Assembly (NCBI GenBank): GCA_020354625.1
Contig: CP070651.1
Coordinates: 1,495,799-1,534,373 of the forward strand
Length of the DNA stretch: 38,575 nucleotides
Reading direction: 5' to 3'
Source of the DNA: Trueperaceae bacterium
Lineage (GTDB): Bacteria; Deinococcota; Deinococci; Deinococcales; Trueperaceae
Positions 1,150-27,026 of this stretch are shown one piece after another (positions within the stretch are counted from its first letter, which is position 1; every line of letters starts with the position of its first letter). The position numbers were made by a program, and so were the translations under genes. The notes under the pieces are model-generated. The model saw nothing but the letters and a program-made list of their open reading frames with translations. It ran no database searches and was not told the DNA's origin.

Positions 1150-4100
1150 CTATGCTGGCGCTCGTCTGCTACTCCACGCTGCCACGATGTCTCGGTGCCA
1201 GGGGATATCCTCGAGGTAACGGCGCCGATCGGCCTCGTTCGGAATCTGGTCGGCGCGTTGCTGCAGGAAGCCGAAGGCCTCTTCGAGGATCTGATCGGCT
1301 CGTGGATCATCGACTTGTTCGAGCACGTCAAAGCACGTCAGGTAGATCCGCAGCGGCTCCCAGGTTCCGTTGAGCGTGCCCCCTTTGGCAAGGTAGCTCA
1401 CGATCTCGTCGATGTGCTTCCGTGCCAAAGTCAAGTCGCCTTTTGTTGCAGCGACCCGGGCCAACCCGGCCAGCGCCCCCGTGGCGAGGTGAGTTTGTTC
1501 GAGCCTGCGTCTGATGTCAAGCGACTCCCGGTAGGCGGCCGCCGCCTTTTCCGGTTGTTTGAGACCCAACCAGGCGTGACCGAGCCACACCAGACCTTCG
1601 GCGGCAGCCTCGTGATGATCGACCTTCTTCGTCAGTTCGACTCCGGTCAGCGCATGCTCTCGGGCCAGATCCCAGTTGCCTTGAGCCGAGCTCACCCAGC
1701 CGAGGTTCACATGGGTCATGGCCTCGTACACCGAGTCTCCTATCTCACGTGAGATTTCGAGGTGCTGCTGGTATTTATCCCATGCATCTTGGAAATCGCC
1801 GAGGAGCGTGGAGACGACCCCGAGATTGTTGAGGGAGACCGCCACGAGTTTCGGATCCCCCGACTTTTGAGCCAGGGCCAAGGCTCGCTCGTTATGATCT
1901 CGTGCCGTCGTGTAGGCCCCAAGGGCCATATGGATCATGGCAAGGGCATCGAAGCTGGACTTTTGTGCGCGAGGGTCTCCCGTCTGTTGTGCCAGCTCGA
2001 GCGCTGTCTGGGCATGGCTGAGAGCAGCTTCGTGCTCGCTCAATTGAATTTGCGCCCAGGCTAGGGCGAGATAGGCCTTGCCGACCAGGTCCTGTTGCTG
2101 GGCGGTCTCCGCAAGGTCGATCGCGCGCCCGGCTGCGGCTTCCATCTCGGCGAAATCGCCGATCCAAAAAGCGAGCCAGGCGTACTCGAAGACGACCTCC
2201 GCTCGCTTGCGTTCGTCTTCCAGGCGGTCGGCGACACCGGTCATCGATGCGAGATCTTCCCGCTGTGCAACCCGGTTGCCTTGAGTGGCGTAGACGTTCA
2301 TCCTGCCCTTCAGGAGCTGGTACCGTTGCGCTAGGTCCTCATCCGGAACGAGCGCCAGCGCTCGGCTGTAGAAGTCTACGGCTTCGTTGACGGCGTAGTT
2401 GGCCACGGCCGCTTCGGCGGCCTGCTTCAGGTACTCGAGCGCTTCAGCCGCCCTTCCGGCTTTCTCGAGATGCCCCGCGATCAGTCCGCTGATCTGTCCT
2501 GCCCTGTTACTGCTGTGCTCGATCAACCAATCGGCCACCATGGCGTGATAGCTTCGGCGCATGCGTTTCAGCACGCTCTCGTAGGTCACCTCTCGCAAGA
2601 TGGTGTGTTCGAAGAAGTACTCTGCGGCATCGGAGAAGGCTGAGGTCACCTGCTCGAAGATCATCTCGCGGGCCGTCAAGGCGTCGAGGCACCGTTTGGT
2701 TTCTTGGGCGCTCGTGGGTTCCCGCATTCGATCGGGAGGCTTACCCTGGTTGAGGTAGCAAACTGCCTCATCCCAGAACACCCTGCCCACCACCGAGGCC
2801 TGTTGCAAGACGCTGCGCTCGGGCTCCGGTAGGCCTTCCAGCCTTGCCTGGATTACCCCGGTGAGGGTCGGTGGGATCCGCACCACCCCCAGGCGCTCGG
2901 GGTGCAGGCGCCACTGGGGCTCGCTCTTTTCAATGACACCATCTTCGATCAACATCTTGATCAGTTCTTCTAGGTAGAACGGGTTGCCTTCGGCGTTTTG
3001 GATGATGAGATCGCGGAGCGAGTGGGGCAGCTCGACCACCTTCTTCAGGACCTCCCCGACCAACTGCTGGCTCTCTCGGCGCGTCAGCGGTTGCAGCTCG
3101 AGCCGCTGGTCATGCGTGACGGTTTCCCATGAGGAAACTCGCTCGAACAGCGAGGGGCGCGTGAGGGCGATGACGAGAGCGGGTCGACTGGAGAGCTCAC
3201 CGATCAACGGCAGCAGGAGGTCGAGCGAGCTTTCGTCGGCCCAGTGCACATCTTCGAGAAAGATGACGAGCGTGCGCTCGGCGGCGAGGGCGGCCAGATA
3301 CCCATTCAGGTAGTTCAGGGTGCGGTCACGGAGCTGCCGGGGGTCGTCCAGCACGCCCTGAAGATAGGGGCTGTCGTGGAAGTCGAAACCGAGCAATTGC
3401 CCCACGAAATGGGCGTTCCTTTCCCCGTTTACGTCTTCCCCAAGCGCCTCTGTGAAGCCCGCAACGAGCTTTGTTCGGACCTCTGAAGGGGCGTCGTTCT
3501 CCAGGATCCCGACCCGATCGGCGATCAGGTTGCTCAGTAGTCCGTAGGGTAGCTCCAAGGTTTCCGGAGTGGCCCGTCCCTTGAAGAGTTCGATGGGCGT
3601 GGGCCCTAGCCCCAGGTCCAACCAGCGCTCGAACTCTCCAAGCAGGCGCGACTTGCCGATCCCGGCCTCACCGACGATGGTGACAAACCTGCCGCCTCGT
3701 TCTCGCCTAACGGCTCCTATCGCCTCCTGCAGGGATCTGAGCTCCGCCTCTCGGCCGATCATGGTGGTCTCGACGCCCTCGATCCCGCGAGTCGTCGAGT
3801 CGAAGGCGCGTGGTTTGGCCTTTTTGACGCGGTAGACTTGCACCGGTTCCGCGAAGCCTTTCGCCGCGATCGCTCGACCCGGTTCGACCTCGAAGAGTCC
3901 CCGCACGTGTTGGTAGGTGTCTTGGGAGATGAGCAGTCCACCCGGTGGGGCAGCGCTTTCTAAGCGCGCTGCCAGGTTGACCGTCAAGCCGGTCAGGGCC
4001 CCCTCTCCCTCTGTCACACCGCCCGTCACGACCAGTCCGGTGTTCACGCCCACCCGCACCTGAAAGCCTTCGAGCTGGTGTTCGCTTTCCAGATCCGCAG

Positions 4101-4524
4101 CGATTTTGCGCGCTGCGTCCAAGATCCCCAACCCTGCGCGCACCGCCATCTCGGGGTCGTTCTCCCGGGCGCGCGTGAGCCCGAAGGCCGCTTTGAAGCC
4201 GTCTCCCATGAAGCGCACCACACGCCCCCCGCGGGTTGCAACCGGTAGCGCCAATCGCTGAAGGACGGCGTCCATGATGGCCAGGTTTTCCTCGGGGTCC
4301 AGCTCGCTCACCAGCCGGGTAGAAGCGACGACATCCATGAACAGCACCGTCATCAGCTTGCGTTTTTGAGCTGCCGACTTGCTCTCTAGCTCGTCGAGTT
4401 GTTGTTGCAGCGCGGCGATGGTCGCATCGACGATCGCGTGACCCAACGTGCCGCGCAGTCCTTCTTGCGCGGCGATGGCTCGTTTGAGCTGTTCTTTTTT
4501 GGCTTCGCGATCTTCTATTGTCAT
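1150..4524 (-). CDS. class III adenylate/guanylate cyclase fused to AAA ATPase and TPR domains
   Basis: Large signalling protein of 1124 residues. Residues 1-55 are a charged predicted coiled coil. Residues about 56-235 form a class III nucleotide cyclase domain: LFMDVVAS carries metal-ligand Asp64, FMGDGF carries Asp108, and TVNLAAR (Asn183, Arg187) carries the transition-state pair, so the domain looks catalytically complete. Residues about 250-600 hold a signalling P-loop ATPase module with Walker A GEAGIGKS (285-292) and a Walker B-like LVIFLEDVHWAD. The rest, from about 690, is Ala/Leu-rich TPR repeats. The cyclase-ATPase-TPR order is known from large bacterial regulators, often annotated 'adenylate/guanylate cyclase domain-containing protein'. 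It lacks the C-terminal LuxR-type HTH of the related LAL regulators, so output is probably cyclic nucleotide or protein contacts. ATP versus GTP preference is unknown. It is probably cytosolic, since no membrane segment is seen. Confidence 0.9.
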   Translation of the reverse strand: MTIEDREAKKEQLKRAIAAQEGLRGTLGHAIVDATIAALQQQLDELESKSAAQKRKLMTVLFMDVVASTRLVSELDPEENLAIMDAVLQRLALPVATRGGRVVRFMGDGFKAAFGLTRARENDPEMAVRAGLGILDAARKIAADLESEHQLEGFQVRVGVNTGLVVTGGVTEGEGALTGLTVNLAARLESAAPPGGLLISQDTYQHVRGLFEVEPGRAIAAKGFAEPVQVYRVKKAKPRAFDSTTRGIEGVETTMIGREAELRSLQEAIGAVRRERGGRFVTIVGEAGIGKSRLLGEFERWLDLGLGPTPIELFKGRATPETLELPYGLLSNLIADRVGILENDAPSEVRTKLVAGFTEALGEDVNGERNAHFVGQLLGFDFHDSPYLQGVLDDPRQLRDRTLNYLNGYLAALAAERTLVIFLEDVHWADESSLDLLLPLIGELSSRPALVIALTRPSLFERVSSWETVTHDQRLELQPLTRRESQQLVGEVLKKVVELPHSLRDLIIQNAEGNPFYLEELIKMLIEDGVIEKSEPQWRLHPERLGVVRIPPTLTGVIQARLEGLPEPERSVLQQASVVGRVFWDEAVCYLNQGKPPDRMREPTSAQETKRCLDALTAREMIFEQVTSAFSDAAEYFFEHTILREVTYESVLKRMRRSYHAMVADWLIEHSSNRAGQISGLIAGHLEKAGRAAEALEYLKQAAEAAVANYAVNEAVDFYSRALALVPDEDLAQRYQLLKGRMNVYATQGNRVAQREDLASMTGVADRLEDERKRAEVVFEYAWLAFWIGDFAEMEAAAGRAIDLAETAQQQDLVGKAYLALAWAQIQLSEHEAALSHAQTALELAQQTGDPRAQKSSFDALAMIHMALGAYTTARDHNERALALAQKSGDPKLVAVSLNNLGVVSTLLGDFQDAWDKYQQHLEISREIGDSVYEAMTHVNLGWVSSAQGNWDLAREHALTGVELTKKVDHHEAAAEGLVWLGHAWLGLKQPEKAAAAYRESLDIRRRLEQTHLATGALAGLARVAATKGDLTLARKHIDEIVSYLAKGGTLNGTWEPLRIYLTCFDVLEQVDDPRADQILEEAFGFLQQRADQIPNEADRRRYLEDIPWHRDIVAAWSSRRAPA

Positions 4525-9088: not shown

Positions 9089-10753
9089 CTACTCCAGGAA
9101 CTCGCCGGTGAAGAACCTGGCCCAGCCGGCTGCGGGGTGGAGGGCGACCGGTTTGACATCACCGCTTCGCTGGCCCAGCTCCCGGCAGCGCTCCAAGTAG
9201 GTTTCGGACCCCCCCTTGGTCACGCGAAACACTCTCATGGCTTTTAGCTGGCCCAGCTCTCGGCAGTAACGGTAATGGAAACTGCCTTGTAAGCGTATCT
9301 CCAGTTCTGCGGCCGCTTGCCTGAGAGCGGTGTCGCCGGCGTCTCCTTCGATGAAGAGGGTGTAAGCACCAAGCGCCTCGGCAGGCTCGAACGCTACCAT
9401 GGCGAAGGTGGGGGTCACACATTGGCTTTTCAGTGCTGCTTCAAGTGCCGGCCCGAGAAAGCGTTCGTTGAGTTTCTCCCCGAAGTGATCTGAGACCAGT
9501 GCCTCCTTACCTAGAAAGCGCAGGAGGGGGCAGGACCGATAAAAGCCCGTCACCTCGACGAGATCCTGAAGCCGGTAGCGGTACAAACCGCCGGAGGTGC
9601 TCACGACCACCGAGTAGATCTCTCCTTGGACGAGTTCATCGGCGAGAAGGGTTTGGTTCGAACCTTCCGGTATGAATTCGAAGAAGTGCGACCTTATCGC
9701 CAGGGCGGCTCCCTCCCGACTCCAGAGTGGAATGGAGATGAATGCTTCGGTGGCGATGAGGCCTTTGGGTTGGATAGGTACCTGTGGGAACCGTTTTGCC
9801 AGCTCCCGTGCGTAGCTGCTGCTTTGGGCGTCGGCCCAACAGCTGATGAGAGCAAGCTGGGGCCATAGGGACTGGTGAAGCTCGGCCGGATCGTCAAGGG
9901 TGAAGGCTCTGGCAACCTCGGCTGCACGTTTCCTATCAGGAGCGACGTGGCGTGTGAGCCTAGACGATAAAGAGGAGGATAGATGTCCACTGGGGGGTGA
10001 GAGGGTTCCGTCACCGAGGTCGGCCAGGAGCTGCTCTCGCCAGGCGGGCAGGCGCAGGCGCTCGAGCAGCAGGCTGAGGAAGGTTGGGTTCCATACCGAG
10101 ATAAATCTCAGCGTGGCGTGGCGGAGCAAGAACAGCAGTGTCAGGTAGCGCAAATCGTCCATATCCCTGATGAGCCTTAGGATCCCGGGCACGGCGAGCA
10201 CTGACTCGGCAAGGTGGCGCTTGAGACCGCCGAGATAGGCACTGTCTTGATCGAAGCCGATGGGGATGCCACCACGGCTCAGCTCCTGCTCATGCGTGAC
10301 GGGACTTACAGACCAGTAAGCTTCACCGCCTCGTAGCTTAGGTACGTGGCGGAACAGATCTGCCATCCAGGTGGCGATGGCGCGGTCGAACTCCGCTTTG
10401 AGCCCCTTGGTGTAAGGGATCAGTTTGCGGGCCGAACTCGAGCCGCTGGTAGGTTCTAGCAGCACGACCGGTTCGCGGGTCAGCACGCCCTGTTCACCGT
10501 TTGCGATGCGCTCCACATCCGAAGCGTACTCTTCAAAGCGATGAAGCGGCACCTGAGCTTGGTAAGCTTCGATGCCGTCGAGCCGGGCGAACCGGTAGCG
10601 CTTGCCAAAGACCGTGTCTTGATTGCGCTCGAGGAGGCTTCGAAGGATCGAGCTTTGCTGTAGACGGATACGGCGACAGGCTCGTTGAAAAGCGGCTGCC
10701 TCGTATAGGGAGGCGGCATACCAGAGGCTGTTGGCGAGGTAAGTAGTCCTCAC
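9089..10753 (-). CDS. GH3-family acyl-adenylating amide synthetase
   Basis: 554 residues, homologous throughout to the GH3 (auxin-responsive promoter) superfamily. Members activate a carboxylic acid as acyl-AMP and usually conjugate it to an amine or amino acid. Visible motifs are LLEPTSGSSSARKLIPYT (about residues 98-115), the ATP-phosphate-binding loop; LIATEAFISIP, corresponding to the adenine-binding strand; and SGGLYRYRLQDLVEVTGFY (the YRxxD nucleotide-binding motif), followed by FLGKEALVSDHFGEKLNE, which leads into the C-terminal cap. All core motifs are present, so it looks active. Last gene of a five-gene minus-strand operon. Its start codon shares 4 nt with the stop of the GNAT-like gene. 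In the cluster it is the best candidate for the condensing step that joins an acid to an amine. Confidence 0.85.
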   Translation of the reverse strand: MRTTYLANSLWYAASLYEAAAFQRACRRIRLQQSSILRSLLERNQDTVFGKRYRFARLDGIEAYQAQVPLHRFEEYASDVERIANGEQGVLTREPVVLLEPTSGSSSARKLIPYTKGLKAEFDRAIATWMADLFRHVPKLRGGEAYWSVSPVTHEQELSRGGIPIGFDQDSAYLGGLKRHLAESVLAVPGILRLIRDMDDLRYLTLLFLLRHATLRFISVWNPTFLSLLLERLRLPAWREQLLADLGDGTLSPPSGHLSSSLSSRLTRHVAPDRKRAAEVARAFTLDDPAELHQSLWPQLALISCWADAQSSSYARELAKRFPQVPIQPKGLIATEAFISIPLWSREGAALAIRSHFFEFIPEGSNQTLLADELVQGEIYSVVVSTSGGLYRYRLQDLVEVTGFYRSCPLLRFLGKEALVSDHFGEKLNERFLGPALEAALKSQCVTPTFAMVAFEPAEALGAYTLFIEGDAGDTALRQAAAELEIRLQGSFHYRYCRELGQLKAMRVFRVTKGGSETYLERCRELGQRSGDVKPVALHPAAGWARFFTGEFLE

Positions 10754-11505
10754 GATTCCTTATCCAACGCACCCACCAGCCGCTTACCGGCAGGCGTGAG
10801 GTTGGCAGGATGGAGTTCGGCGAGGCACACGAGCTCATCGCCGCGCTTGTGGCCGGGATTCATCTGCAAGAAGAAGCGTACATGGGGATCCTTGAGGCGC
10901 CTGGCTTCGATGTCGGCGATACCCTGCCTCAACGGTGCCGCTTCCCGGAAGCGGACGACACCGCGACCGCGGTCGTACTCGCCATCGAACTTCGAGCCGG
11001 CGAGCGTATGCATCACCGCTTGCTCGAAACTCGGCGTCTGCGCGAGGTGGCTCGGAAAGAAGTTGCGGTAGGCGACCGGTAGGAAGCGGTAGGTCTTGTA
11101 TCCGGAACTGATCAACAACCAGTACACCTTGACCCCGGGTGTCTTCTTTCGGAGCTTCGCCGCCTCGTCAAAGGCATACTGTCCCCAGAGCCGGGTCAAC
11201 TCGGTCTGCCCCCAGAAGCGGTGCGCTACGATCGTGTCCCCCGAGAAAAACGCCGTAACCAGAACCCCTTGTACACGGGCTTCCAGCCGCATGAGCGTCG
11301 AGAACCCTTGGAGCCGCCCATCCCCATCGCGTAACAGGATCACGGAATCCTTCTCCGCAAGGTCTTTGGCGAACCGCGTCTCAGTGAGGTTTTCGAAGTA
11401 GACATCGAGCAGCTCGAACATCTCCCGCATTTCGCAGCGGCTCAAGTGGGCTACGGCAGACAGCGTACCCTGGAGCGTTCGGTTTTTTTCCTTGGCTTTC
11501 GTCAC
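10750..11505 (-). CDS. GNAT-like protein of unknown function, cluster member
   Basis: 251 residues with no family I can name confidently. The region SVILLRDGDGRLQGFSTLMRL looks like the central beta strands of a GNAT N-acetyltransferase fold, and FWGQTELTRLWGQYAFDEAAK like the helix after the acetyl-CoA loop. It shares GNAT-like layout and the LWxQYA block with the upstream gene product (LWDQYA), suggesting distant paralogy. The C-terminus PHVRFFLQMNPGHKRGDELVCLAEL is a distinctive tail. I chose GTG 11505, which has GAGGTG six bases upstream and lies 10 nt beyond the preceding stop. A longer frame to 11553 overlaps the upstream gene. Probably an acyl- or acetyltransferase modifying the cluster product. 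Confidence 0.6.
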   Translation of the reverse strand: MTKAKEKNRTLQGTLSAVAHLSRCEMREMFELLDVYFENLTETRFAKDLAEKDSVILLRDGDGRLQGFSTLMRLEARVQGVLVTAFFSGDTIVAHRFWGQTELTRLWGQYAFDEAAKLRKKTPGVKVYWLLISSGYKTYRFLPVAYRNFFPSHLAQTPSFEQAVMHTLAGSKFDGEYDRGRGVVRFREAAPLRQGIADIEARRLKDPHVRFFLQMNPGHKRGDELVCLAELHPANLTPAGKRLVGALDKES

Positions 11506-11515
11506 AAGATCCACC

Positions 11516-12628
11516 TCACAACGTCGCAATCTCGAGGAAGGGTACGCGGGCATCCAATGAACTGAAGAAGTCCTTGCCGAAGTCGACTGAGTAGAGCGTG
11601 CTCTCGTAAAGTAGATGCGGGAGGCGGGTGGCGACCTGCAAAAGGGGGTCGGTGGTACAGAGACCCAACATCAGATATGTGTAACCACGTGCGCAAGCCT
11701 GTTGGTAAAGGTGATCTAGCAGGCTGGCAAAGATGTCCTCTCGGTTGTCCTTGATGCAGATGAAGCTAGCGTAGATAAAGGGAATAGGCTTCCCCGCCGC
11801 CGGCAGCGGGCGTCCTCCGCGCAGACGAGTGTAGGCGTTATAAAAGGGCCTGGCGAGCTGCAACGATGGCGTGTAGGAGCGTATCACCGTCTGCTTGTAG
11901 GCATACTGATCCCAAAGGCCGGCGACACCTACCAACTCTTCCCCCTCGCTGGCAAGGACCAGATCGGCCAGTTTGAGTCCGAGCGTCCGCTCACCGAGGA
12001 AGTCGCGCATTTGATAGTGCGGGTAGAACTGTTTGTCTGCACCCACCCGATTCAGAAACGTCACGATCTTCTCGAGCTCACCCTCCTGTGCTGCGCGAAG
12101 CGAGAACGGTGACCTTGCGACACGTCTGCGTCGGAGGATGAGCGCCAGGGTGTGTAAGGTGGCCAGCCTCGAGAGGGTGGGATAGCCACGCCGTGCCCGC
12201 TTGATGAGCACCCCTTCAGCCGTAGCGTTGCCGGAGGTCAAGGTGGTGATGTAGCCCTCCGGTGGGTCTTGGGCATCGCGCTCTCGGAAGAAGTGCACGC
12301 CTCTGGCGAGGAGCATGCGGCCTTGAAACTCAGGCGCGATACGCAGCTGACTGATGTAACCGAGTTGGGTGGGAGAGCCGTTGATATAGCAATTTCTCAG
12401 CGCTCTCGTGCACATGGCCACTAGCTGTTCTCCGTAGTGGAGCGTCAACGTCTCGACGGTCTCACCCGTGACTCGGCAGCCGAGAAAGTAGCTTGGCTCC
12501 CGCTCGTAACTGACGGTGACTTCGCCCGGTATGGGGAGTCTGCAGAGATCACGGAGGGCCTCGTCATCGTCTAGCCCAGCAAGCTGGGTTCGAAACGCGG
12601 CCGGCTCGGACTTGCGTTTCGAGGTCAC
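11516..12628 (-). CDS. double-domain GNAT-like acyltransferase, cluster member
   Basis: About 370 residues. The N-terminal half contains LGYISQLRIAPEFQGRMLLARG, a recognisable GNAT acetyl-CoA pyrophosphate loop (R/Q-x-x-x-x-x-G type). The C-terminal half repeats a GNAT-like order with LVLASEGEELVGVAGLWDQYA and ends in a long tail with MLGLCTTDPLL. This suggests a tandem-GNAT enzyme with one or both sites active. GTG at 12628 overlaps the stop of the upstream radical SAM gene as GTGA, so coupled translation is likely. The frame also allows a GTG at 12652. Neither has a clear Shine-Dalgarno. Predicted role: acyl-CoA-dependent acylation of an intermediate made by the radical SAM enzymes. Confidence 0.68.
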   Translation of the reverse strand: MTSKRKSEPAAFRTQLAGLDDDEALRDLCRLPIPGEVTVSYEREPSYFLGCRVTGETVETLTLHYGEQLVAMCTRALRNCYINGSPTQLGYISQLRIAPEFQGRMLLARGVHFFRERDAQDPPEGYITTLTSGNATAEGVLIKRARRGYPTLSRLATLHTLALILRRRRVARSPFSLRAAQEGELEKIVTFLNRVGADKQFYPHYQMRDFLGERTLGLKLADLVLASEGEELVGVAGLWDQYAYKQTVIRSYTPSLQLARPFYNAYTRLRGGRPLPAAGKPIPFIYASFICIKDNREDIFASLLDHLYQQACARGYTYLMLGLCTTDPLLQVATRLPHLLYESTLYSVDFGKDFFSSLDARVPFLEIATL

Positions 12629-13977
12629 GCTTTGAGCAAGGTACCTTGCCACGACGCGTCGCCAAGGGGATAGTTGTCCCGAAGGCTTACCTCCTTGCGA
12701 AACATACCGTTGATGAGAAAGAAGTTACGGAACATCAGACCGCTTGAGCGGTTAACCTCATCGAGGCTGCGTCTTACGATGCTGGGGAGCGTGTAGAAAC
12801 TGCGTCGCGCCTCTACGCAGCCGTGCTGCAGCTGTTCGGGAGTCATGTTTTTGGGTTTGAACGGGATCATGTTGTACTTGTAGCGCTTATCGAGCCACCA
12901 GGAGGGATAGAGGAGGCGCCCTTCACGCTCGAGGCGCTGGTAGAGCGGCGTACCGGGGAAAGGGGTGAGGTGGTTGAAAGCCGCGATGTAGAAGGCGTTT
13001 CGTTTGGCGAACGCGACCGTTTCCGTAAACGATTCGGGCGTGTCCTGATCGTAGCCGAACACGAAGGTGATGTAGAGCCGGACGCGGTGGCGGCGTAGAT
13101 TTTTCAAGGCTTCCTCGAAGCCACCACGCATCGTGTTGAACTCCTTGTTCATACCCTTCAAGTTCTCGGGGTTGAGGCTTTCGAAGCCGATGAGAATCGC
13201 CTGACAGCCGCTTCGGACCATGAGGTCGAGCAGCTCGGGATCGTGAGCGACGTTGATGCTGGCCTGACTTACCCAGCGCACGCCGAGGGGGATGAGGGCC
13301 TTGAAGAATGCCTTTGCCTCTTTGGTGTTTGCAGTGACGTTGTCGTCTACGAAAAAGATGAGCTTGCGCTGTGCAGCGACTCGGATAACCTCTTCGAGAA
13401 CTTCGTCGAGAGGGCGGCGGTTCTGGGTATTGTTGAACACCGTCTGGATGGCACAGAAATCGCAGTTGAAATAGCAGCCGCGACCGGCCTCGACCAGCCC
13501 GATGGGCAGGTAGCGTTTACCTCTGAAGATGTCGCGCCGCGGGCGTAATCCCCGTAGGGACGGTCGCTCTAGCGCCCGGTAGGTCTTTTCGAGTCGACCG
13601 TGTCGGAAGTCGTCGAGGACCCCTTCCCAGATATCCTCTGCTTCGCCAATGACCAGGGCGTCGGCGTACATGGCGACCTCGTCGAGACGGAGGGTGGCGT
13701 GAAAACCGCCCATGATGACGGGAACACCGCGACGCCGATATTCGCTGGCGAGTTCGTAGCTGCGCCGCGCCGTGTAGGTTTCGACGCTGATGGCGACCAG
13801 GTCGGTCGGTTCATCGAACGGGATTTGCTCCATCCGATCGTCGTAGAATTTCACGTCGATCTCTTTTGGGGTGAGCCCGGCCAGGGTCGCTGCCGGCAGA
13901 GGCTCCATCTGCCAGGTGCCGATGTAAGGTTGATTGGATCTGCGCCCGATGCAGGGATGTACGATCGTGAGTCGCAT
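12625..13977 (-). CDS. B12-binding-type radical SAM protein
   Basis: 450 residues. Residues 1-140 form a Rossmann-like cobalamin-binding-type domain (LTIVHPCIG; VPVIMGGFHATL; ADALVIGEAEDIW). Residues about 160-370 are the radical SAM TIM barrel with CYFNCDFC (Cys168, 172, 175) binding the [4Fe-4S] cluster, then LIFFVDDN and ILIGFESL. The C-terminus has LTPFPGTPLYQRLEREGRLL, the DUF4070-like end of BchE/HpnP-type proteins. Such enzymes catalyse radical methylations, cyclisations or other C-C chemistry. The block DDRMEQIPFDEPTDLVAI (46-63) is identical in the gene at 17155, so the two are paralogues. Good ribosome site (AGGAGCGGTGAAG). Second gene of the minus-strand operon. Confidence 0.88.
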   Translation of the reverse strand: MRLTIVHPCIGRRSNQPYIGTWQMEPLPAATLAGLTPKEIDVKFYDDRMEQIPFDEPTDLVAISVETYTARRSYELASEYRRRGVPVIMGGFHATLRLDEVAMYADALVIGEAEDIWEGVLDDFRHGRLEKTYRALERPSLRGLRPRRDIFRGKRYLPIGLVEAGRGCYFNCDFCAIQTVFNNTQNRRPLDEVLEEVIRVAAQRKLIFFVDDNVTANTKEAKAFFKALIPLGVRWVSQASINVAHDPELLDLMVRSGCQAILIGFESLNPENLKGMNKEFNTMRGGFEEALKNLRRHRVRLYITFVFGYDQDTPESFTETVAFAKRNAFYIAAFNHLTPFPGTPLYQRLEREGRLLYPSWWLDKRYKYNMIPFKPKNMTPEQLQHGCVEARRSFYTLPSIVRRSLDEVNRSSGLMFRNFFLINGMFRKEVSLRDNYPLGDASWQGTLLKA

Positions 13978-14037
13978 AGATCTTCACCGCTCCTTACTGG
14001 CGTCTTCGACCCGGTATTTTCTGCAGGGCCTGCCTCA

Positions 14038-15423
14038 TCACGTCGGTACCGCGGGTGCCGATGTGCTTGGTGCGGGCAAGCGACCCCAGTCACAAGTGTA
14101 ATAGCGGTGCAGGTGGCGAGCGTAGAAGCGGTATCCCAGGTTGGCGGCCAAGGTCACGGGCAGTTGGATGCGAGCTCCGGCCAGCCTCTTGAAGATCGAT
14201 CGGTATCGGTAGGTCTCCTTCCAAGCCCATTCAGTCCCCCGGAACAGGTGGTCGGGTGTCATGTTGGCGGGCTCGAAAACCACGTGCTGAGCGTCGTAGA
14301 GGCTCCAGTCCTCGCTCAGGATCCGCCCCTGATGCTTGAGACGTTTGAAAAGGGGTGTGGCTGGGAAGGGCGTCAAGATGGCGTAGCGGGGAAGATCGAT
14401 GTCGACTTCCTGTACGAAGTCGACCGTCTCGGCAAAGGTACTGTCGGCATCGTGATCGAAGCCGAACACGAAGCAACCCATCACAGCGATGCCGCGTTCG
14501 TGAAGCCGTTTGACCAGCGCGGTGTAGTCCTGTTTGAGGTTGAACCCCTTGCGGGTCTCTCTCAAGGCGGGCGGTGAGAGTGACTCGAAGCCCAACAGAA
14601 GGCCTCGGCAACCACTCTGATGGATGAGGTTCAGTAGCTCTTCATCCCGGGTGATCAGGGTGGTGACCAGCCCGCCCCAGGTAAGGTTGAGAGGGATCAG
14701 AGCCCCAAAGAGCTCTTTGGCATAGTCGGTGTCGGCGATGAGGTTGAGGTCTAAAAAGAGCAGCCGTCTCGTTCGCATCTGCCTTATCTCATCGATGACT
14801 TCGGCCACCGGGCGCTTGAGGTTGCCCCCCCAAGCGGTCGGGACCACGCAGAACTCACAGCCGTGAAGGCAGCCACGGGTCGCCTCGATTGTCTGCACCA
14901 GCGAGTATCTGCCTGCTGTGAGCAACTCCCGTTTGGCATAGGGCAGGCCTGCCAGACTAAGCGCCGGATCCTGGACATAACGGGCTTTGAGCCCGCCTGA
15001 ACAGAAGTCATCAAGCAGACGCGGCCAGCTTTCCTCGGCGTAGCCGACCACCACGGCATCTGCGTGCTGCTGTGCCTCGTCGGGCATGAGCGTGGGATGG
15101 ACCCCGCCCAAAACGACCGGGATGCTCTGCTTGCGGAATCGATCGGCCAGTTCATAGGCGCGCGGTGCCGTTCCGGTGATGGCGCTGATGCCGATGAGGT
15201 CGGCCTCGAGCTCTTCCGGAACTTCTTCGAGCCCCTCATCCACAAGCGTCACCTTCGCTTCGAGATCTTCGGGAATCAGGGCTGCGAGCGTGGTCAAAGT
15301 AAGCGGAGCATAGCGCAGCGAGCGCTTCCAGATCCCCGTCTTGTGACGGTAGAGGGGACCCCGGGGCGAGATCAGTGCGATACGCAGTGGCCTGGCGGGT
15401 ACGGGCTTCCGGTAGGTTGCCAT
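14038..15423 (-). CDS. B12-binding-type radical SAM protein, first gene of the minus-strand operon
   Basis: 461 residues from ATG 15423. That start has GGGGGAG five bases upstream. The frame stays open further but only with non-domain sequence. The N-terminal cobalamin-type domain shows VVLGGVHPTLMPDEA and VVGYAEESW. The radical SAM domain has CLHGCEFC (Cys185, 189, 192), RLLFLDLNL and LLLGFESLSPPALRET. The tail LTPFPATPLFKRLKHQGRIL is the usual end. It is the most divergent of the four cluster members (no DDRMEQIPFDEP block, residues RGPLYRHKTG near the N-terminus), so it probably does a different reaction. A -10 box is seen at 15490-15495. The next gene follows after 60 nt. Confidence 0.86.
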   Translation of the reverse strand: MATYRKPVPARPLRIALISPRGPLYRHKTGIWKRSLRYAPLTLTTLAALIPEDLEAKVTLVDEGLEEVPEELEADLIGISAITGTAPRAYELADRFRKQSIPVVLGGVHPTLMPDEAQQHADAVVVGYAEESWPRLLDDFCSGGLKARYVQDPALSLAGLPYAKRELLTAGRYSLVQTIEATRGCLHGCEFCVVPTAWGGNLKRPVAEVIDEIRQMRTRRLLFLDLNLIADTDYAKELFGALIPLNLTWGGLVTTLITRDEELLNLIHQSGCRGLLLGFESLSPPALRETRKGFNLKQDYTALVKRLHERGIAVMGCFVFGFDHDADSTFAETVDFVQEVDIDLPRYAILTPFPATPLFKRLKHQGRILSEDWSLYDAQHVVFEPANMTPDHLFRGTEWAWKETYRYRSIFKRLAGARIQLPVTLAANLGYRFYARHLHRYYTCDWGRLPAPSTSAPAVPT

Positions 15424-15820
15424 CGTGCTCCCCCAATCAGAAAAGAGCGAAGAACCAGATACCGTTGGCGTAACGCCGGTTGTAACCCAATTATAGCGCC
15501 CGCTCGAGCCAAACCTCCAGAAAGCGGTCGCTCCCATACGATTTCAACGTGCCTCGCCGAGTCTTTGGGGGTGCCGGGACATATGTCTCTGGCAGATTCA
15601 GGGTGCCGCGCCTATGTTGGCAGGGAACAGGTTGGCAGGGCAAGGGTAAAGCGCTTCGGTAGCCAGCCGTCATGGTAACCGTTGGCCGTTCAGGACCTCC
15701 AACTTAAGTTTGGGGCAATGCCTCAAACGTAAGGCGAGCAGAGCGAGTATGGATCGCGGCCGCCCGCGGTCCAATTCTGCAAACAAACTTGGATGTGCTT
15801 AGCGAGGGTGGAGAGTTTGG
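15424..15820. promoter_or_regulatory. divergent intergenic region between the two radical SAM operons
   Basis: Gene-free 397 nt. TATAAT on the minus strand at 15490-15495 is a -10 candidate for the gene starting at 15423, but no good -35 box is visible. GGCGTAACGCC (15467-15477 area) is a small inverted repeat that could be an operator. The words GTTGGCAGGG(A/C)A occur twice in tandem around 15615-15645. The right part is repeat copy 2 (15690-15801), and the plus-strand gene starts 20 nt after it with GGAGAG as ribosome site. No tRNA, riboswitch or open frame is recognised. Confidence 0.45.
15690..15801. repeat. MITE-like element, copy 2
   Basis: Second copy of the ~110 bp element, same orientation as copy 1. 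The left end AGGACCTCCAACTTAAGTTT is identical to copy 1 over at least 30 bases, and the right end is TCCAATTCTGCAAACAAACTTGGATGTGCTTA in two near-identical pieces. The middle is unlike copy 1 but resembles copy 3 (GAG(C/A)AGAGCGAG). Here the left terminus lacks the TA seen in copies 1 and 3. It lies in the divergent promoter region of the radical SAM cluster, just before the plus-strand operon. Confidence 0.6.
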
Positions 15821-17158
15821 ATGAAGCTGACCCTGATTCAGCCGCGAATGGGTTGTGAGGGGGCTACAGATGCGATGCAACCCCTGGCCTTGGGCATCCT
15901 CGCGGCTCAGACGCCCCCCGACGTCGAGGTGACCCTCGTCGACGAGCGGGTTGGGGACCAGCTTCTCTTTGACGACCCCACCGACCTGGTAGCCCTAACC
16001 GTCGAGACCTTTACCGCCAAACGTGCCTATCAGATCGCCTCGAGGTTTCGTGCCAGGGGTGTGCCGGTGGTGATGGGCGGTTTCCATCCAAGCCTGATGA
16101 CCGGAGAGGCCCTCCGTTTTGCCGACTCGGTGGTGATAGGTGACGCCGAGGGTATCTGGGCCGGTGTGATCGAGGATGTGCGCCGGGGGGTGCTGCAGCG
16201 CCTCTATCGGCAGCAGTCGCCTCCGCCTCTCGAGGGTATGTGGGTAGACCGGACGATTTTCGCGGAAAAATCCTACGCCCCGATCGGCTTGGTGCAGTAC
16301 GGACGGGGTTGTCGTTACGCTTGTGATTTTTGCTCGATCAGGGCCTTCTATCACTCCCACATCCGCCTCAGACCGGTTCCCGAGGTGGTGGCTGAGATCG
16401 CGTCGCTGGAAAGAAAGCTCGTCTTTTTTGTAGATGACAACCTCTTATCCGATCCGAAAGCGGCAGAGAAGCTCTTTAGAGCGCTCATCCCTCTGAACAT
16501 CCGTTGGGCCTGCCAGGTGAGCATCGACATCACGTCGTACCCCAAGCTGCTCGACCTCATGGCCGAAAGTGGTTGTATCTTGGCCTTGATGGGCTTCGAA
16601 TCGCTCGATGAGCACAACCTCCGGCAGATGAAAAAAGGCTGGAACCTCAAAATCGGTGACTACGAAGCTGCCATAAAGCGCCTCTATGAGCGGGGCATCA
16701 TGATCTATGGAACCTTCGTCTTCGGCTATGATCACGATACGAGCGACGCCTTCTCCGGCAGCCTGGAATTCGCCAAGCGACACAAGTTCTGCCTGGCCAA
16801 CTTCAATCCTTTGACGCCTACCCCCGGTACCGACTTGTACCGCAGGCTTGCGGCGGAAAAGAGGTTGATCTTCGACAGCTGGTGGCTCGACGACCGCTTC
16901 CGCTATGGTCAGGCCACCTTTCACCCGAGAGGGATGACGGCAGAAGAGCTCGAGCAAGGCTGTTACTGGGCACGTTGCGAGTTCAACCGCGCCACCTCGA
17001 TCCTCGGGCGCTTTCTCGATCTCAAGTCGAACCTGAGCAGTCTGGCAAGTGCGTATACCTACATCGTCGCCAACCTCATCTCGAAACGGGAGATCGCCCG
17101 CAAGCAAGGTCTTCGACTAGGCGACGGGAGTCGTTTGGGGCGCTTGGAGGAGGTATGA
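15821..17158 (+). CDS. B12-binding-type radical SAM protein, plus-strand operon
   Basis: 445 residues. N-terminal cobalamin-type domain (LTLIQPRMG; VPVVMGGFHPSLM; ADSVVIGDAEGIW). Radical SAM domain with CRYACDFC (Cys164, 168, 171), then KLVFFVDDN, LALMGFESL and YGTFVFGYDHD. The tail NPLTPTPGTDLYRRLAAEKRL is as in its relatives. It starts at ATG 15821 with GGAGAGTTTGG upstream. It overlaps the next radical SAM gene by ATGA, so the two are made together. It is divergent from the operon to the left and shares an intergenic region with it, which argues for one regulon. Substrate unknown. Confidence 0.88.
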   Translation: MKLTLIQPRMGCEGATDAMQPLALGILAAQTPPDVEVTLVDERVGDQLLFDDPTDLVALTVETFTAKRAYQIASRFRARGVPVVMGGFHPSLMTGEALRFADSVVIGDAEGIWAGVIEDVRRGVLQRLYRQQSPPPLEGMWVDRTIFAEKSYAPIGLVQYGRGCRYACDFCSIRAFYHSHIRLRPVPEVVAEIASLERKLVFFVDDNLLSDPKAAEKLFRALIPLNIRWACQVSIDITSYPKLLDLMAESGCILALMGFESLDEHNLRQMKKGWNLKIGDYEAAIKRLYERGIMIYGTFVFGYDHDTSDAFSGSLEFAKRHKFCLANFNPLTPTPGTDLYRRLAAEKRLIFDSWWLDDRFRYGQATFHPRGMTAEELEQGCYWARCEFNRATSILGRFLDLKSNLSSLASAYTYIVANLISKREIARKQGLRLGDGSRLGRLEEV

Positions 17159-18483
17159 AAGTAACCTTGATCCACCCGAACCTCGGCCACACCGAGGGGG
17201 AGATCAGTAGTGAGCAGGCCATGATGGAGCCCCTAACCCTCGGTGTTCTGGCCGGCTTGACACCGCCTGAGATCGACCTGGCGATGTTTGATGATCGGAT
17301 GGAGCAGATCCCGTTCGATGAGCCCACCGATCTCGTCGCCATCAACGTCCAATCTTTCACCGCCAAACGCGCTTACGAGATCGGTAGCGCCTATCGCCAA
17401 CGTGGCGTTAAGGTCATCCTCGGCGGCATGCACCCCACCTTGCTTCCCCAAGAGGCCGCAGCGTTCGCCGACAGCGTCTTCATCGGGGATGCTGAGTCGT
17501 TGTGGCCAAGCGTTCTCAGAGATGCGCAACGTGGCGCCCTAAAGCGGATCTACCGAGGCGTACCCGGTCCTCCCCAACCCGGCGCCATCACCAGGCGCGA
17601 CCTCTTCGAGGGCCGAGGCTACCTCCCCGTCACCCTCCTCCAGTTCGGCAGAGGCTGCCACTACGGTTGTACCTTCTGTGCCGTGAACACATTTTTCAAG
17701 GGGCACCATCACGTTCGCGATGTCCGTGAAGTGGTGCGAGAGATCGAGGCCCAAGAGCGGAGGCTGCTGTTCTTCGTCGATGACAATCTCATCGCCGATC
17801 CCGAGGCTGCCAAACGCCTGTTTCGAGCGCTGATTCCCCTCAGGATCCGTTGGGTATCGCAGATGACCATCGAATTGGTGCGCGATGCGGAATTGATGGA
17901 CCTTATGGTCGAAAGTGGTTGCCTGGGAACCCTCATCGGCTTCGAAAGCCTCGACCCCAAGAATTTGAAGGCCGTGGGCAAGGCGGCGAACCTCCAGGGG
18001 TTTGCCCGCTACCAACCTCAGCTGGACGTTCTCCGCGCATACGGCGTACAGATTTGGGCGGCTTTCGTGCTGGGCTTCGATGAAGACACTCCTGAAACGA
18101 TCGACGATACCCTGGCGTTTGCCCTGGAAAACAGGTTCGTGTTCGCCGCTTTCAACCTGTTGACCCCCTACCCGAACACCTCGCTCTACCGGCGTTTCGA
18201 AGAGGAAGGGCGCCTCCTTTACGATGGGCGCTGGTGGTTGCACCCGGACTATAAGTTCAATCACGCAGCTTTTATTCCGAAGCAGATGTCGCCAGAGGCG
18301 CTGACCGAAGCCTGCTTCAACGCCCGCGTCAAGTTCAACAGCCCCGGTTCGATCCTCAGGAGGGCGCTGGAACCCAGCAACCTGCGCTCGCTGTTTCGGG
18401 TGGCGACTTTTTTCTCTTACGCACCGCTGTTTCGCCGAGAAATCTATCGGAAACAGGGTATGACTCTGGGGACCGGGTCGTGA
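17155..18483 (+). CDS. B12-binding-type radical SAM protein, second gene of the plus-strand operon
   Basis: 442 residues from ATG 17155, which overlaps the upstream stop as ATGA and follows AGGAGG. A longer frame opening at 16882 lies within the upstream gene and is an artefact. N-terminal cobalamin-type domain (VTLIHPNLG; VKVILGGMHPTLL; FADSVFIGDAESLW). Radical SAM domain with CHYGCTFC (Cys168, 172, 175), LLFFVDDNLIADPEA and LIGFESLDPKNLKAV. Tail LTPYPNTSLYRRFEEEGRLL. Residues 46-63 are identical to the gene at 12625-13977, the closest paralogue in the window. Confidence 0.88.
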   Translation: MKVTLIHPNLGHTEGEISSEQAMMEPLTLGVLAGLTPPEIDLAMFDDRMEQIPFDEPTDLVAINVQSFTAKRAYEIGSAYRQRGVKVILGGMHPTLLPQEAAAFADSVFIGDAESLWPSVLRDAQRGALKRIYRGVPGPPQPGAITRRDLFEGRGYLPVTLLQFGRGCHYGCTFCAVNTFFKGHHHVRDVREVVREIEAQERRLLFFVDDNLIADPEAAKRLFRALIPLRIRWVSQMTIELVRDAELMDLMVESGCLGTLIGFESLDPKNLKAVGKAANLQGFARYQPQLDVLRAYGVQIWAAFVLGFDEDTPETIDDTLAFALENRFVFAAFNLLTPYPNTSLYRRFEEEGRLLYDGRWWLHPDYKFNHAAFIPKQMSPEALTEACFNARVKFNSPGSILRRALEPSNLRSLFRVATFFSYAPLFRREIYRKQGMTLGTGS

Positions 18484-18550: not shown

Positions 18551-19490
18551 CCCACATTCCGGCGGTTAGTGAAACGCGCTGAAGGTATTTTGGGGCATGA
18601 CCCCAATCGATGGTTCAGAGCTTCAGTCGTTCAGTTTGGATCACTTGGGAATCGTTGCCGGCATCATCGACGAGATCGGCCTTGTTGAGAGTGTCAACGA
18701 GGAGTTTGGGATTCACTCCCAGGAGATCGTGAGTACAGGAGTGGCCGTCAAGGCGATGATCTTGAATGGACTTGGCTTCGTCTCAGCGCCGCTTTACTTG
18801 TTCGAGCATTTCTACCGAGGTAAGCCGTGCGAGCACCTGCTTGGAGAAGGCGTCACCCCAGAGCACTTAAGCGATGACAAGCTCGGCAAGGTGTTGGATA
18901 AGCTCTATGAGGCTGATCTCACCCGTTTGTTTGTGAAGATCGCGCTCAGGGCGGCTAAGCGTTACGGAGTAGAGGTAACGTCATTGCATCTTGATGCCAG
19001 CAGCTTCCACGTGCACGGCCGCTACGAGGGCGAACCGAGAGAAGAAGATGAGGAAGACGAAGGCGTGATTCACATCACCCACGGATACTCTCGGGAGAGA
19101 CGGCCTGACTTGAAGCAGTTCTTGGTCGACCTGATGGCCAGTAGTGATGAGGGGGTACCGGTATTCTTTGACGCGGCGAGTGGCAATGAGAGTGATAAGG
19201 ATCGTTTCGCCGATCTGATCAAGCGTTTTTCTGAGCTCACCGATGTCGACGCGCTTTTCATCGCTGATAGCGCCTTGTATACACAAGAGAATCTCCAGGC
19301 GCTTTCAAACCTACGGTGGGTGACGCGGGTGCCACTCACCTTGAAAGAGGCCAAGCGAGTTCTAGACGACGTTTCAGAAGATGCCTTCATGTCATGAACT
19401 TATCGGATGAGCGAAAACACGTGCTAGACTTCTTCTCTCCAGAATGTCGGAAATACGATCGGCTGTCGTGATGAACCAGCGGAATGTGGG
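18551..19490 (+). mobile_element. IS1634-like insertion sequence, internally deleted, both ends present
   Basis: Terminal inverted repeats: left CCCACATTCCGGCGGTT (18551-18567); right, reverse-complemented, CCCACATTCCGCTGGTT (19474-19490); 15 of 17 match. Between them lie the first 265 codons of a transposase and, in another frame, its last ~25 codons. The element is 940 bp, where an intact relative would be about 1.7-1.9 kb. No flanking direct repeat is evident (CCTCAT versus CTAAAG), so the target duplication has decayed or one flank was rearranged. Confidence 0.75.
18597..19471 (+). pseudogene. IS1634-family transposase, internal deletion with frameshift
   Basis: The N-terminal 265 residues (18597-19397) show the IS1634 opening SLDHLGIVAGIIDEIGLVES (DUF4277-like), an invariant LHLDASSFHVHG, and the first part of the DDE domain (VPVFFDAASGNESDKDRF, ALFIADSALYT). 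The frame then stops at 19395-19397. In the +2-shifted frame from 19394 the sequence reads LSDERKHVLDFFSPECRKY and ends with TGA at 19469-19471, which looks like the C-terminus of the same transposase. The middle, roughly 250 residues with the later catalytic acidic residue, is missing. The product cannot transpose. The element might still be moved in trans, since both inverted repeats remain. Confidence 0.75.
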
Positions 19491-24331: not shown

Positions 24332-24775
24332 ATGGAGAGTTTTGTCCCGACGCGTACGCCCGAGCCTCCAGCGGGCACCCGAATCCTGAACTTGGAGGCT
24401 ACGAGTAGCCTGCAGGTCATCGAGCGCCTCGATGAAGGGCTGGCTACCGACAGCGTCGTGCGGCTGGCGAGCCACCTTGAACTACCCGTTGGACGGGTGC
24501 TCGAGTTGGTAGACATCAAGAGCAGCACCTTCCACGACCGCAAAAAGCGTCGCCGTCGTTTGAGCCCTGAGGAATCGGGACGGGTTTACCGTCTTGCCAA
24601 GGTTGTGGAAGCAGCCGAAGCCTACTTCGAAGAGGGTGGCGCGGCGCGGCGCTGGCTCAGCCACCCCAAAGTGGCGCTCGGCGGCAAGGCGCCACTGGCT
24701 GTCTCGCGGACGGCGGAAGGTGCCGACTACGTCATCAAGCTTCTGGGACGTATGGCGCATGGGGTCATCTCCTGA
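24332..24775 (+). CDS. Xre/MbcA/ParS-type antitoxin of a RES toxin, module 1
   Basis: 147-residue antitoxin. The N-terminal ~70 residues look like an Xre-type helical DNA-binding domain (ATSSLQVIERLDEGLATDSV; DIKSSTFHDRKKRRRRL). The C-terminal ~60 (DUF2384-like toxin-binding domain) shows WLSHPKVALGGKAPLAVSRT followed by LLGRMAHGV, the usual 'LGGxxPLxxxRTxxG' antitoxin signature. It neutralises the RES toxin and represses the operon. ATG 24332 follows a putative operator at 24292-24311. Its last codons give CTGA, which is also the presumed toxin start. Confidence 0.85.
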   Translation: MESFVPTRTPEPPAGTRILNLEATSSLQVIERLDEGLATDSVVRLASHLELPVGRVLELVDIKSSTFHDRKKRRRRLSPEESGRVYRLAKVVEAAEAYFEEGGAARRWLSHPKVALGGKAPLAVSRTAEGADYVIKLLGRMAHGVIS

Positions 24776-25272
24776 GCCTGATCACTGCCTACCGCATCAG
24801 TGACGCGCGCTACCGCGATGCCACCATGACGGGCTGGGGAGCCTATCTCAACGGAGGTCGTTGGAATACGTCTGAGAGGTTTGTGGTCTATCTCAGCGGC
24901 ACGGTGACGTTGGCCATGCTCGAGGTGTTGGTCCACATCGACGATGCCGAGGCTTTCTTGAGCAAACAACACGTCTACCACAGCGTCAGTTTTGATGATG
25001 CGAGCGTTGCGGTGCTCGAGCAAGATGCGCTTCCGCCCGCTTGGAACGCACGTCCCGAGACGCTTGCTAGCCAGGTGGTGGGGGATGAGTTTTTAGAGCG
25101 TGGCGAGCACGCCGTGTTGGCCGTGCCCAGCGTGGTGGTCCCGACGGAGTTGCGCTACGACCCCCTCTACATGAACTACTTGCTCAACCCCAGACACCCC
25201 GACCTCGCCACCACGGTCGAGGTCGGAGAGGTTCACGATCTGGACTGGGATCCGCGCCTCAGCCGGGGTTAG
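24772..25272 (+). CDS. RES domain toxin (NAD+-degrading), module 1
   Basis: 166 residues if translation begins at CTG 24772, which overlaps the antitoxin stop as CTGA. The first in-frame ATG (24826) would remove the conserved ITAYRISDARY that opens the RES fold. CTG 24778 is another option. Signature residues: GAYLNGGRWNTSERFVVYLS (GGRWNxxG-like), TLAMLEVLVHI, HAVLAVPSVVVPTE and MNYLLNPRHPD. RES toxins deplete NAD+. The conserved Arg, Glu and Ser appear intact. By comparison with module 2 the start region is complete only with a non-ATG start, so expression is probably weak and coupled. Confidence 0.8.
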   Translation: MSLITAYRISDARYRDATMTGWGAYLNGGRWNTSERFVVYLSGTVTLAMLEVLVHIDDAEAFLSKQHVYHSVSFDDASVAVLEQDALPPAWNARPETLASQVVGDEFLERGEHAVLAVPSVVVPTELRYDPLYMNYLLNPRHPDLATTVEVGEVHDLDWDPRLSRG

Positions 25273-26654: not shown

Positions 26655-27026
26655 ATGACTTTAGTCGAGCAGATTGCTGAGGTAGAGCAAGGGATCGACT
26701 ACCAGCGGTTTGGAGAGCTGGCCCGTCGTTTTGGGGCTTCGGAGGAGCGTCTCAGACGCGTCCTCGGCTTCTCGGCGACCACCTTACACCGCCGCAAGCA
26801 CGCCGGCCGCTTCAACACCGACGAATCCAATAAGCTCTACTGGCTCGAAAGGCTGTTGGATACCGCCGATCAGGTGCTCGAGGATCCTGAAGAGACCAAG
26901 GTGTTCATGACGACCAGTAACCTGGCCTTGGGAGGTGTGATTCCCCTCGATTACGCCCGCACCGCTCCCGGTTTGGAGGCAGTGAGGCGGCTTCTCCACC
27001 AGCTCGACCACGGGGTCGTCGTTTGA
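26655..27026 (+). CDS. Xre/MbcA/ParS-type antitoxin of a RES toxin, module 2
   Basis: 123 residues. N-terminal DNA-binding part with RFGASEERLRRVLGFSATTL; C-terminal toxin-binding part with TSNLALGGVIPLDYARTAPG and LHQLDHGVV. Same family as the antitoxin at 24332 but divergent: shorter N-terminus, and a different operator sequence (TTTCATGTGAAA here, TTGGA there). The two modules therefore should not cross-regulate easily. It ends in TTGA, shared with the toxin start. Confidence 0.85.
   Translation: MTLVEQIAEVEQGIDYQRFGELARRFGASEERLRRVLGFSATTLHRRKHAGRFNTDESNKLYWLERLLDTADQVLEDPEETKVFMTTSNLALGGVIPLDYARTAPGLEAVRRLLHQLDHGVVV

Follow-up and report, generated by a model that had tools for sequence, protein, structure and literature searches.

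A modular gene cluster combining a GH3 synthetase, two GNAT-fold proteins and paired B12-type radical SAM enzymes in Trueperaceae and distant bacteria

Enzymes of the GH3 family adenylate a carboxylic acid and then form an amide, and GNATs move acyl groups, mostly onto nitrogen. Here, we describe a locus in which both kinds of protein stand beside radical SAM (rSAM) enzymes: a divergent cluster of seven genes at positions 9089-18483 of a 38,575-nucleotide stretch (the window) of a Trueperaceae bacterium genome (contig CP070651.1), encoding one GH3 synthetase, two GNAT-fold proteins (GN1 and GN2) and four B12-type rSAM enzymes (rA to rD). The parts belong to known families, and it is their combination and modular distribution that appear new.

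In the OlsH/OlsI ornithine-lipid pathway of planctomycetes, the bacterial GH3 protein OlsH joins a free fatty acid to ornithine to give N-acyl-ornithine (PMC12493201). The likeness to the window lies in a bacterial GH3-like ligase and, in the reading proposed below, in a lipid operon and a fatty acid-amine amide; however, GH3s linked to GN1 form a clade of their own, and GNAT and rSAM genes occupy the window where the OlsI and OlsG genes stand in that pathway. As a candidate OlsH lyso-ornithine lipid synthetase, the window GH3 scores only 42.8 bits against a cut-off of 620 (NCBIfam NF052613), and this identity was rejected. Plant GH3 amido synthetases such as JAR1, the best PDB match (residues 21-533), share near full-length sequence similarity and the nucleotide-motif regions (TSGSSSARK and GGLYRYRLQD in the window protein), whereas the window GH3 is bacterial and clustered with rSAM and GNAT genes.

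On the rSAM side, the BchE, HpnJ and PhpK families (TIGR02026, TIGR03471 and TIGR04479) have the same domain layout and CxxxCxxC motif and are the top-scoring NCBIfam models, but at ~70-94 bits against cut-offs of 481-600, and the window enzymes fall into four subfamilies of their own, arranged in pairs. The initial annotation had allowed that a hopanoid or bacteriochlorophyll step might account for the rSAM set; the best scores of 94 bits against 481 (BchE), 89 against 578 (HpnJ) and 45 against 650 (HpnR) speak against such an identity. Tes is a known case of rSAM chemistry on unactivated alkyl carbons (PMC9433317), and the Tes/Mss lipid-coupling enzymes would share this target with the window enzymes if a lipid product is correct. 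Unlike them, the window rSAM families have none of the cysteine sets that belong to the auxiliary Fe-S clusters of Tes, and the PDB sequence matches of rA and rB include no Tes entry; a Tes/Mss lipid synthase identity was rejected. No characterised pathway of this composition was found in an open-access library of papers, a body without biosynthetic gene cluster databases and without most subscription journals and preprints.

Co-occurrence, modularity and distribution

All seven open reading frames (ORFs) are intact, with five reading leftward (rB, rA, GN2, GN1, GH3) and two rightward (rC, rD), as the initial annotation had described. We compared 33 loci that carry GN1, the marker of the cluster family, with 68 other bacterial GH3 loci that do not. 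A GH3 gene lies close by in 28 of the 33 GN1 loci and GN2 in 24; rA and rB each occur in 17 (16 complete pairs), and rC and rD in eight, always together (8/8), whereas GN2 and the four rSAM genes are each found in 0/68 controls. A lone rA or rB is seen only in L006 and L119, where the contig stops on that side. The same contrast holds for fatty-acid desaturase and Rieske genes (12/33 each) and for SnoaL and PAP2 genes (9/33 each), each again at 0/68.

Because co-location is kept in distant phyla and no control GH3 locus carries GN1, GN2 or any of rA to rD, the seven-gene neighbourhood is confirmed as a real cluster, beyond chance. GH3, at least two rSAM genes and the GNAT pair are co-located in other genomes, the pattern proposed earlier as a check, and homologues are not scattered. 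Homologue distances among GN1, GN2, GH3, rA and rB are correlated (Mantel r 0.75-0.85; p ~0.0005), a pattern that either vertical or horizontal co-inheritance would produce, and the GH3 tree groups the cluster-linked proteins in one clade (support 1.0) that includes a single intruder from Thiomargarita. One co-inherited biosynthetic system with a GH3, two GNATs and paired B12-type rSAMs is supported.

GN1 with GH3 and GN2 is the most constant part of the family; the rSAM pairs are interchangeable modules that some loci lack. This core is accompanied by rA/rB only, by both rSAM pairs, by Rieske, desaturase, SnoaL and PAP2 genes, or by both tailoring sorts, as in L011, L118, L133 and L136, among others. 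An rSAM-free version in Acinetobacter baumannii (L084, 5186-13963; NZ_CP064203.1) reads HlyD, EmrB-like MFS, GN1, GH3, OEP, GN2 and SurE, and another occurs in Burkholderia arboris; NZ_CP064203.1 is a 3.97 Mb record filed as a plasmid, and its version of the cluster includes export genes. Other genes near related loci encode AurF-like, hexapeptide, UnbV/FG-GAP, P450, FA_hydroxylase, CDP-alcohol phosphatidyltransferase and GDSL lipase proteins. A 919-aa protein combining an NQR2/RnfD-like membrane part with FG-GAP and UnbV/ASPIC repeats (L115, 5315-8074) recurs in three gammaproteobacterial cluster versions (L114-L116).

A GH3 search of the genome collection recovered cluster relatives in Desulfobacula (L009) and in metagenome-assembled genomes (MAGs) of Halieaceae (L006), Bacillaceae (L008), Chromatiales (L010) and Acidobacteriota (L011), together with many GH3 genes without other cluster members. 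Within the window's own family, three relatives have a version of five genes that lacks rC and rD. GN1 profile searches, which covered 111 to 369 genomes per group, reveal a patchy distribution, with matches in 4 of 111 genomes from the small phylum to which the window belongs, 9 of 369 from Gammaproteobacteria, 4 of 345 from Desulfobacterota (one a weak match), 11 of 347 from Acidobacteriota and 1 of 300 from Bacilli. By protein distance, the nearest relatives of the window GN1, GN2 and GH3 lie in other phyla and those of rA and rB, marginally, in its own family; these per-protein differences hint at horizontal transfer and module exchange.

A plasmid tblastn search with GN1 led to plasmid NZ_CP134684.1 of Citrobacter portucalensis 64A:C, from a gull, where L087 1418-13513 (plasmid positions 51417-63512) holds GN1, GH3, rB, rA, GN2, rC and rD in a single row, then PAP2 and SnoaL-like genes, with a fifth rSAM gene and a fatty-acid desaturase gene reading divergently. 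With the whole gene set on one plasmid, it offers a tractable starting point. No near-identity match to the Citrobacter cluster was found among the other plasmids of the collection, nor a near match in E. coli complete genomes; no GN1 relative was found in viral contigs, and the sole match in phages was a distant rSAM in Streptomyces phage SF3.

The encoded enzymes

The GH3 gene (9089-10753, minus strand; 554 aa) encodes the synthetase that the initial annotation had recognised, with the Pfam GH3, GH3_M and GH3_C domains at 169.8, 69.4 and 30 bits against a curated cut-off of 23.6. Its neighbours GN1 (10750-11553, minus strand; 267 aa) and GN2 (11516-12652, minus strand; 378 aa) are sub-threshold as GNATs in Pfam, but their predicted structures support the GNAT fold that had been proposed for both. 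The AlphaFold model of GN1 (mean confidence, pLDDT, 86.6) is a single domain whose best Foldseek matches are GNATs such as aminoglycoside acetyltransferase AAC(2')-Ia, and SGDT, GxxTY and one Cys are invariant across 29 members. GN2 (pLDDT 85.5) is modelled as a tandem GNAT and aligns over its full length with glucosamine N-acetyltransferase, the mycobacterial tandem GNAT MAB_4324 and N-myristoyltransferases (NMTs).

The four enzymes annotated as B12-type rSAMs form two partner pairs: rA (12625-13977; 450 aa) and rB (14038-15423) on the minus strand, rC (15821-17158; 445 aa) and rD (17155-18483; 442 aa) on the plus strand. The rSAM assignment stands for all of them, with PF04055 above its cut-off throughout (63 bits in rA, 51 in rC and 58 in rD, run from 17152), whereas the B12-binding domain PF02310 exceeds its curated cut-off of 32.1 in rB (53 bits) and is matched below cut-off in rA, rC and rD. 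CxxxCxxC is kept in every detected rSAM homologue, and beyond this triad each family has only one to three further conserved Cys columns. rA is ~54-69% identical to its homologues in other clusters, and the rA relatives detected in its own genome are the four cluster rSAM genes only.

The proposed product and its alternatives

We infer from the enzyme families that the product would be a conjugate of an unusual acid, as had been suggested at the outset, and we hold it somewhat likelier than otherwise that the locus is a modular, horizontally moving biosynthetic cluster that most likely makes a small amide resembling a lipoamino acid. The GH3 enzyme would activate a carboxylic acid by adenylation, with a fatty or otherwise hydrophobic acyl group as the probable substrate, and couple it to an amine or amino acid as an amide; GN1 and GN2, the tandem GNAT that resembles NMTs, may move further acyl groups from coenzyme A (CoA) or acyl carrier protein (ACP) onto nitrogen; and the rA/rB and rC/rD pairs would alter unactivated carbons without O2, by C-methylation, rearrangement or dehydrogenation. 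These reactions seem more likely than chain coupling, because CxxxCxxC is kept, a putative B12-type domain is present and the Tes auxiliary cysteine sets are absent. In other loci, the rSAM pairs are joined or replaced by enzymes of the Rieske, desaturase, fatty-acid hydroxylase, P450 and AurF-like kinds. A fatty product is the better guess, with a polar amino-acid product as the possible alternative, because of the lipid-type neighbours (FA_desaturase, FA_hydroxylase, PAP2, CDP-alcohol phosphatidyltransferase and GDSL lipase); the OlsH precedent (PMC12493201) and the likeness of GN2 to N-myristoyltransferase lean the same way.

We see evenly balanced prospects for the broader claim that these loci represent a hitherto undescribed class of amide natural products or lipids in bacteria, built on a GNAT-GH3-tandem-GNAT core with exchangeable B12 radical-SAM/oxygenase modules, transferred across phyla and carried on an enterobacterial plasmid. 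If true, this would be a biosynthetic cluster family without a nonribosomal peptide synthetase or polyketide synthase that uses a plant-hormone-type ligase with paired radical enzymes, and a core on which oxygen-free radical enzymes and oxygen-dependent oxygenases replace one another would provide a test of how tailoring chemistry is exchanged between bacteria.

Several points weigh against the lipoamino-acid-like reading. The control GH3 loci are mostly planctomycete and cyanobacterium-related, a fair background that is not taxonomically matched; the relatives are mostly MAGs, and several loci end at contig edges. GH3 is missing from five GN1 loci and GN2 from nine. The DxHxxG motif was not found in the putative B12-type domains, two matches in rB homologues lying elsewhere, and neither a dedicated ACP nor a consistently present exporter was noticed among the genes of the loci. 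Distances for rD track the core weakly (Mantel r 0.31-0.58), and because of this weak correlation rC/rD have perhaps been exchanged independently of the core. Finally, one cluster-linked desaturase-fold protein (L133) weakly matches guanitoxin GntB (20 bits).

This last match bears on the alternative that survives best, though we still consider it unlikely: a polar, amino-acid-derived, alkaloid-like product, in which the GH3 and GNATs would acylate an amino acid or polyamine and a desaturase-fold hydroxylase, Rieske, SnoaL and rSAM enzymes would modify the amino-acid moiety, in the manner of guanitoxin-type pathways. Enzymes of the FA_desaturase fold can also hydroxylate amino acids, and because of this and the GntB match a non-lipid product is possible. 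The GN1 fold resembles aminoglycoside acetyltransferases, SnoaL, Rieske and AurF proteins are typically associated with specialised metabolites, and one neighbour in L009 joins a GNAT and a HisC/CobD-like aminotransferase in a single fusion protein. However, the GntB and CobD matches are far under cut-off, and PAP2, FA_hydroxylase, CDP-alcohol phosphatidyltransferase and the NMT-like GN2 favour lipids. The L009 fusion (222-1991; Desulfobacula), whose GNAT part is FeeM-like, lies 39 nt before rB and may be part of the rB operon.

It is improbable that two or more separate pathways merely adjoin, a GH3/GNAT system next to independent rSAM operons. Acinetobacter, Burkholderia and several MAGs have cores that lack rSAMs, and L113 has an rC/rD pair with GN1 but no GH3. 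These loci would fit such an arrangement, but across phyla rA/rB adjoin GN1/GH3 in several arrangements that differ in order and orientation, and both the empty controls and the correlated distances argue for one system. We give slightly less credence still to a membrane-spanning or ring-forming lipid, with the rSAMs coupling or cyclising alkyl chains like Tes/Mss or Grs; the rSAM pairs do adjoin lipid-type genes and Tes provides a precedent on unactivated alkyl carbons (PMC9433317), but the missing cysteines of the Tes auxiliary clusters and the lack of a Tes entry among the PDB matches of rA and rB stand against it. Least probable of all is a pathway for a ribosomally synthesised and post-translationally modified peptide, altered by the rSAMs and capped by GH3/GNAT, since its weak matches to the rSAM models ApyD and rSAM_ocin_1 are far under cut-offs and no conserved short precursor was found, a comparison of 578 small ORFs from 16 clusters giving no match from one cluster to another.

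Gene layout and flanking genes

The ATGA overlap of rC and rD given in the initial annotation stands (4 nt). In the minus-strand operon, GH3/GN1 overlap by 4 nt, GN1/GN2 by 38 nt and GN2/rA by 28 nt, and rA and rB are separated by a 60-nt gap. The rD start is at 17155, in the overlap with rC, replacing the mechanical call at 16882. For rB, the start is probably 15423, although the ORF opens at 15537, and this shift lengthens the divergent intergenic region to ~397 nt (15424-15820). Judging by the gene order, both divergent promoters presumably lie within it. No sigma-70-like promoter or terminator-like match was found between the operons, and an Rfam scan of the window gave no cobalamin riboswitch or other RNA match.

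At 18597-19397 on the plus strand, 113 nt downstream of rD, lies a 266-aa DUF4277/DDE transposase fragment; it is probably an insertion sequence remnant at the cluster edge, because the DDE domain is only partly there. Further along the same strand, an Xre antitoxin/RES toxin pair occupies 24332-25272, with a second Xre-type antitoxin gene nearby (26655-27026, plus strand). On the other side of the cluster, the minus-strand gene at 1150-4524 encodes a 1124-aa protein that unites adenylate/guanylate cyclase, AAA and TPR domains.

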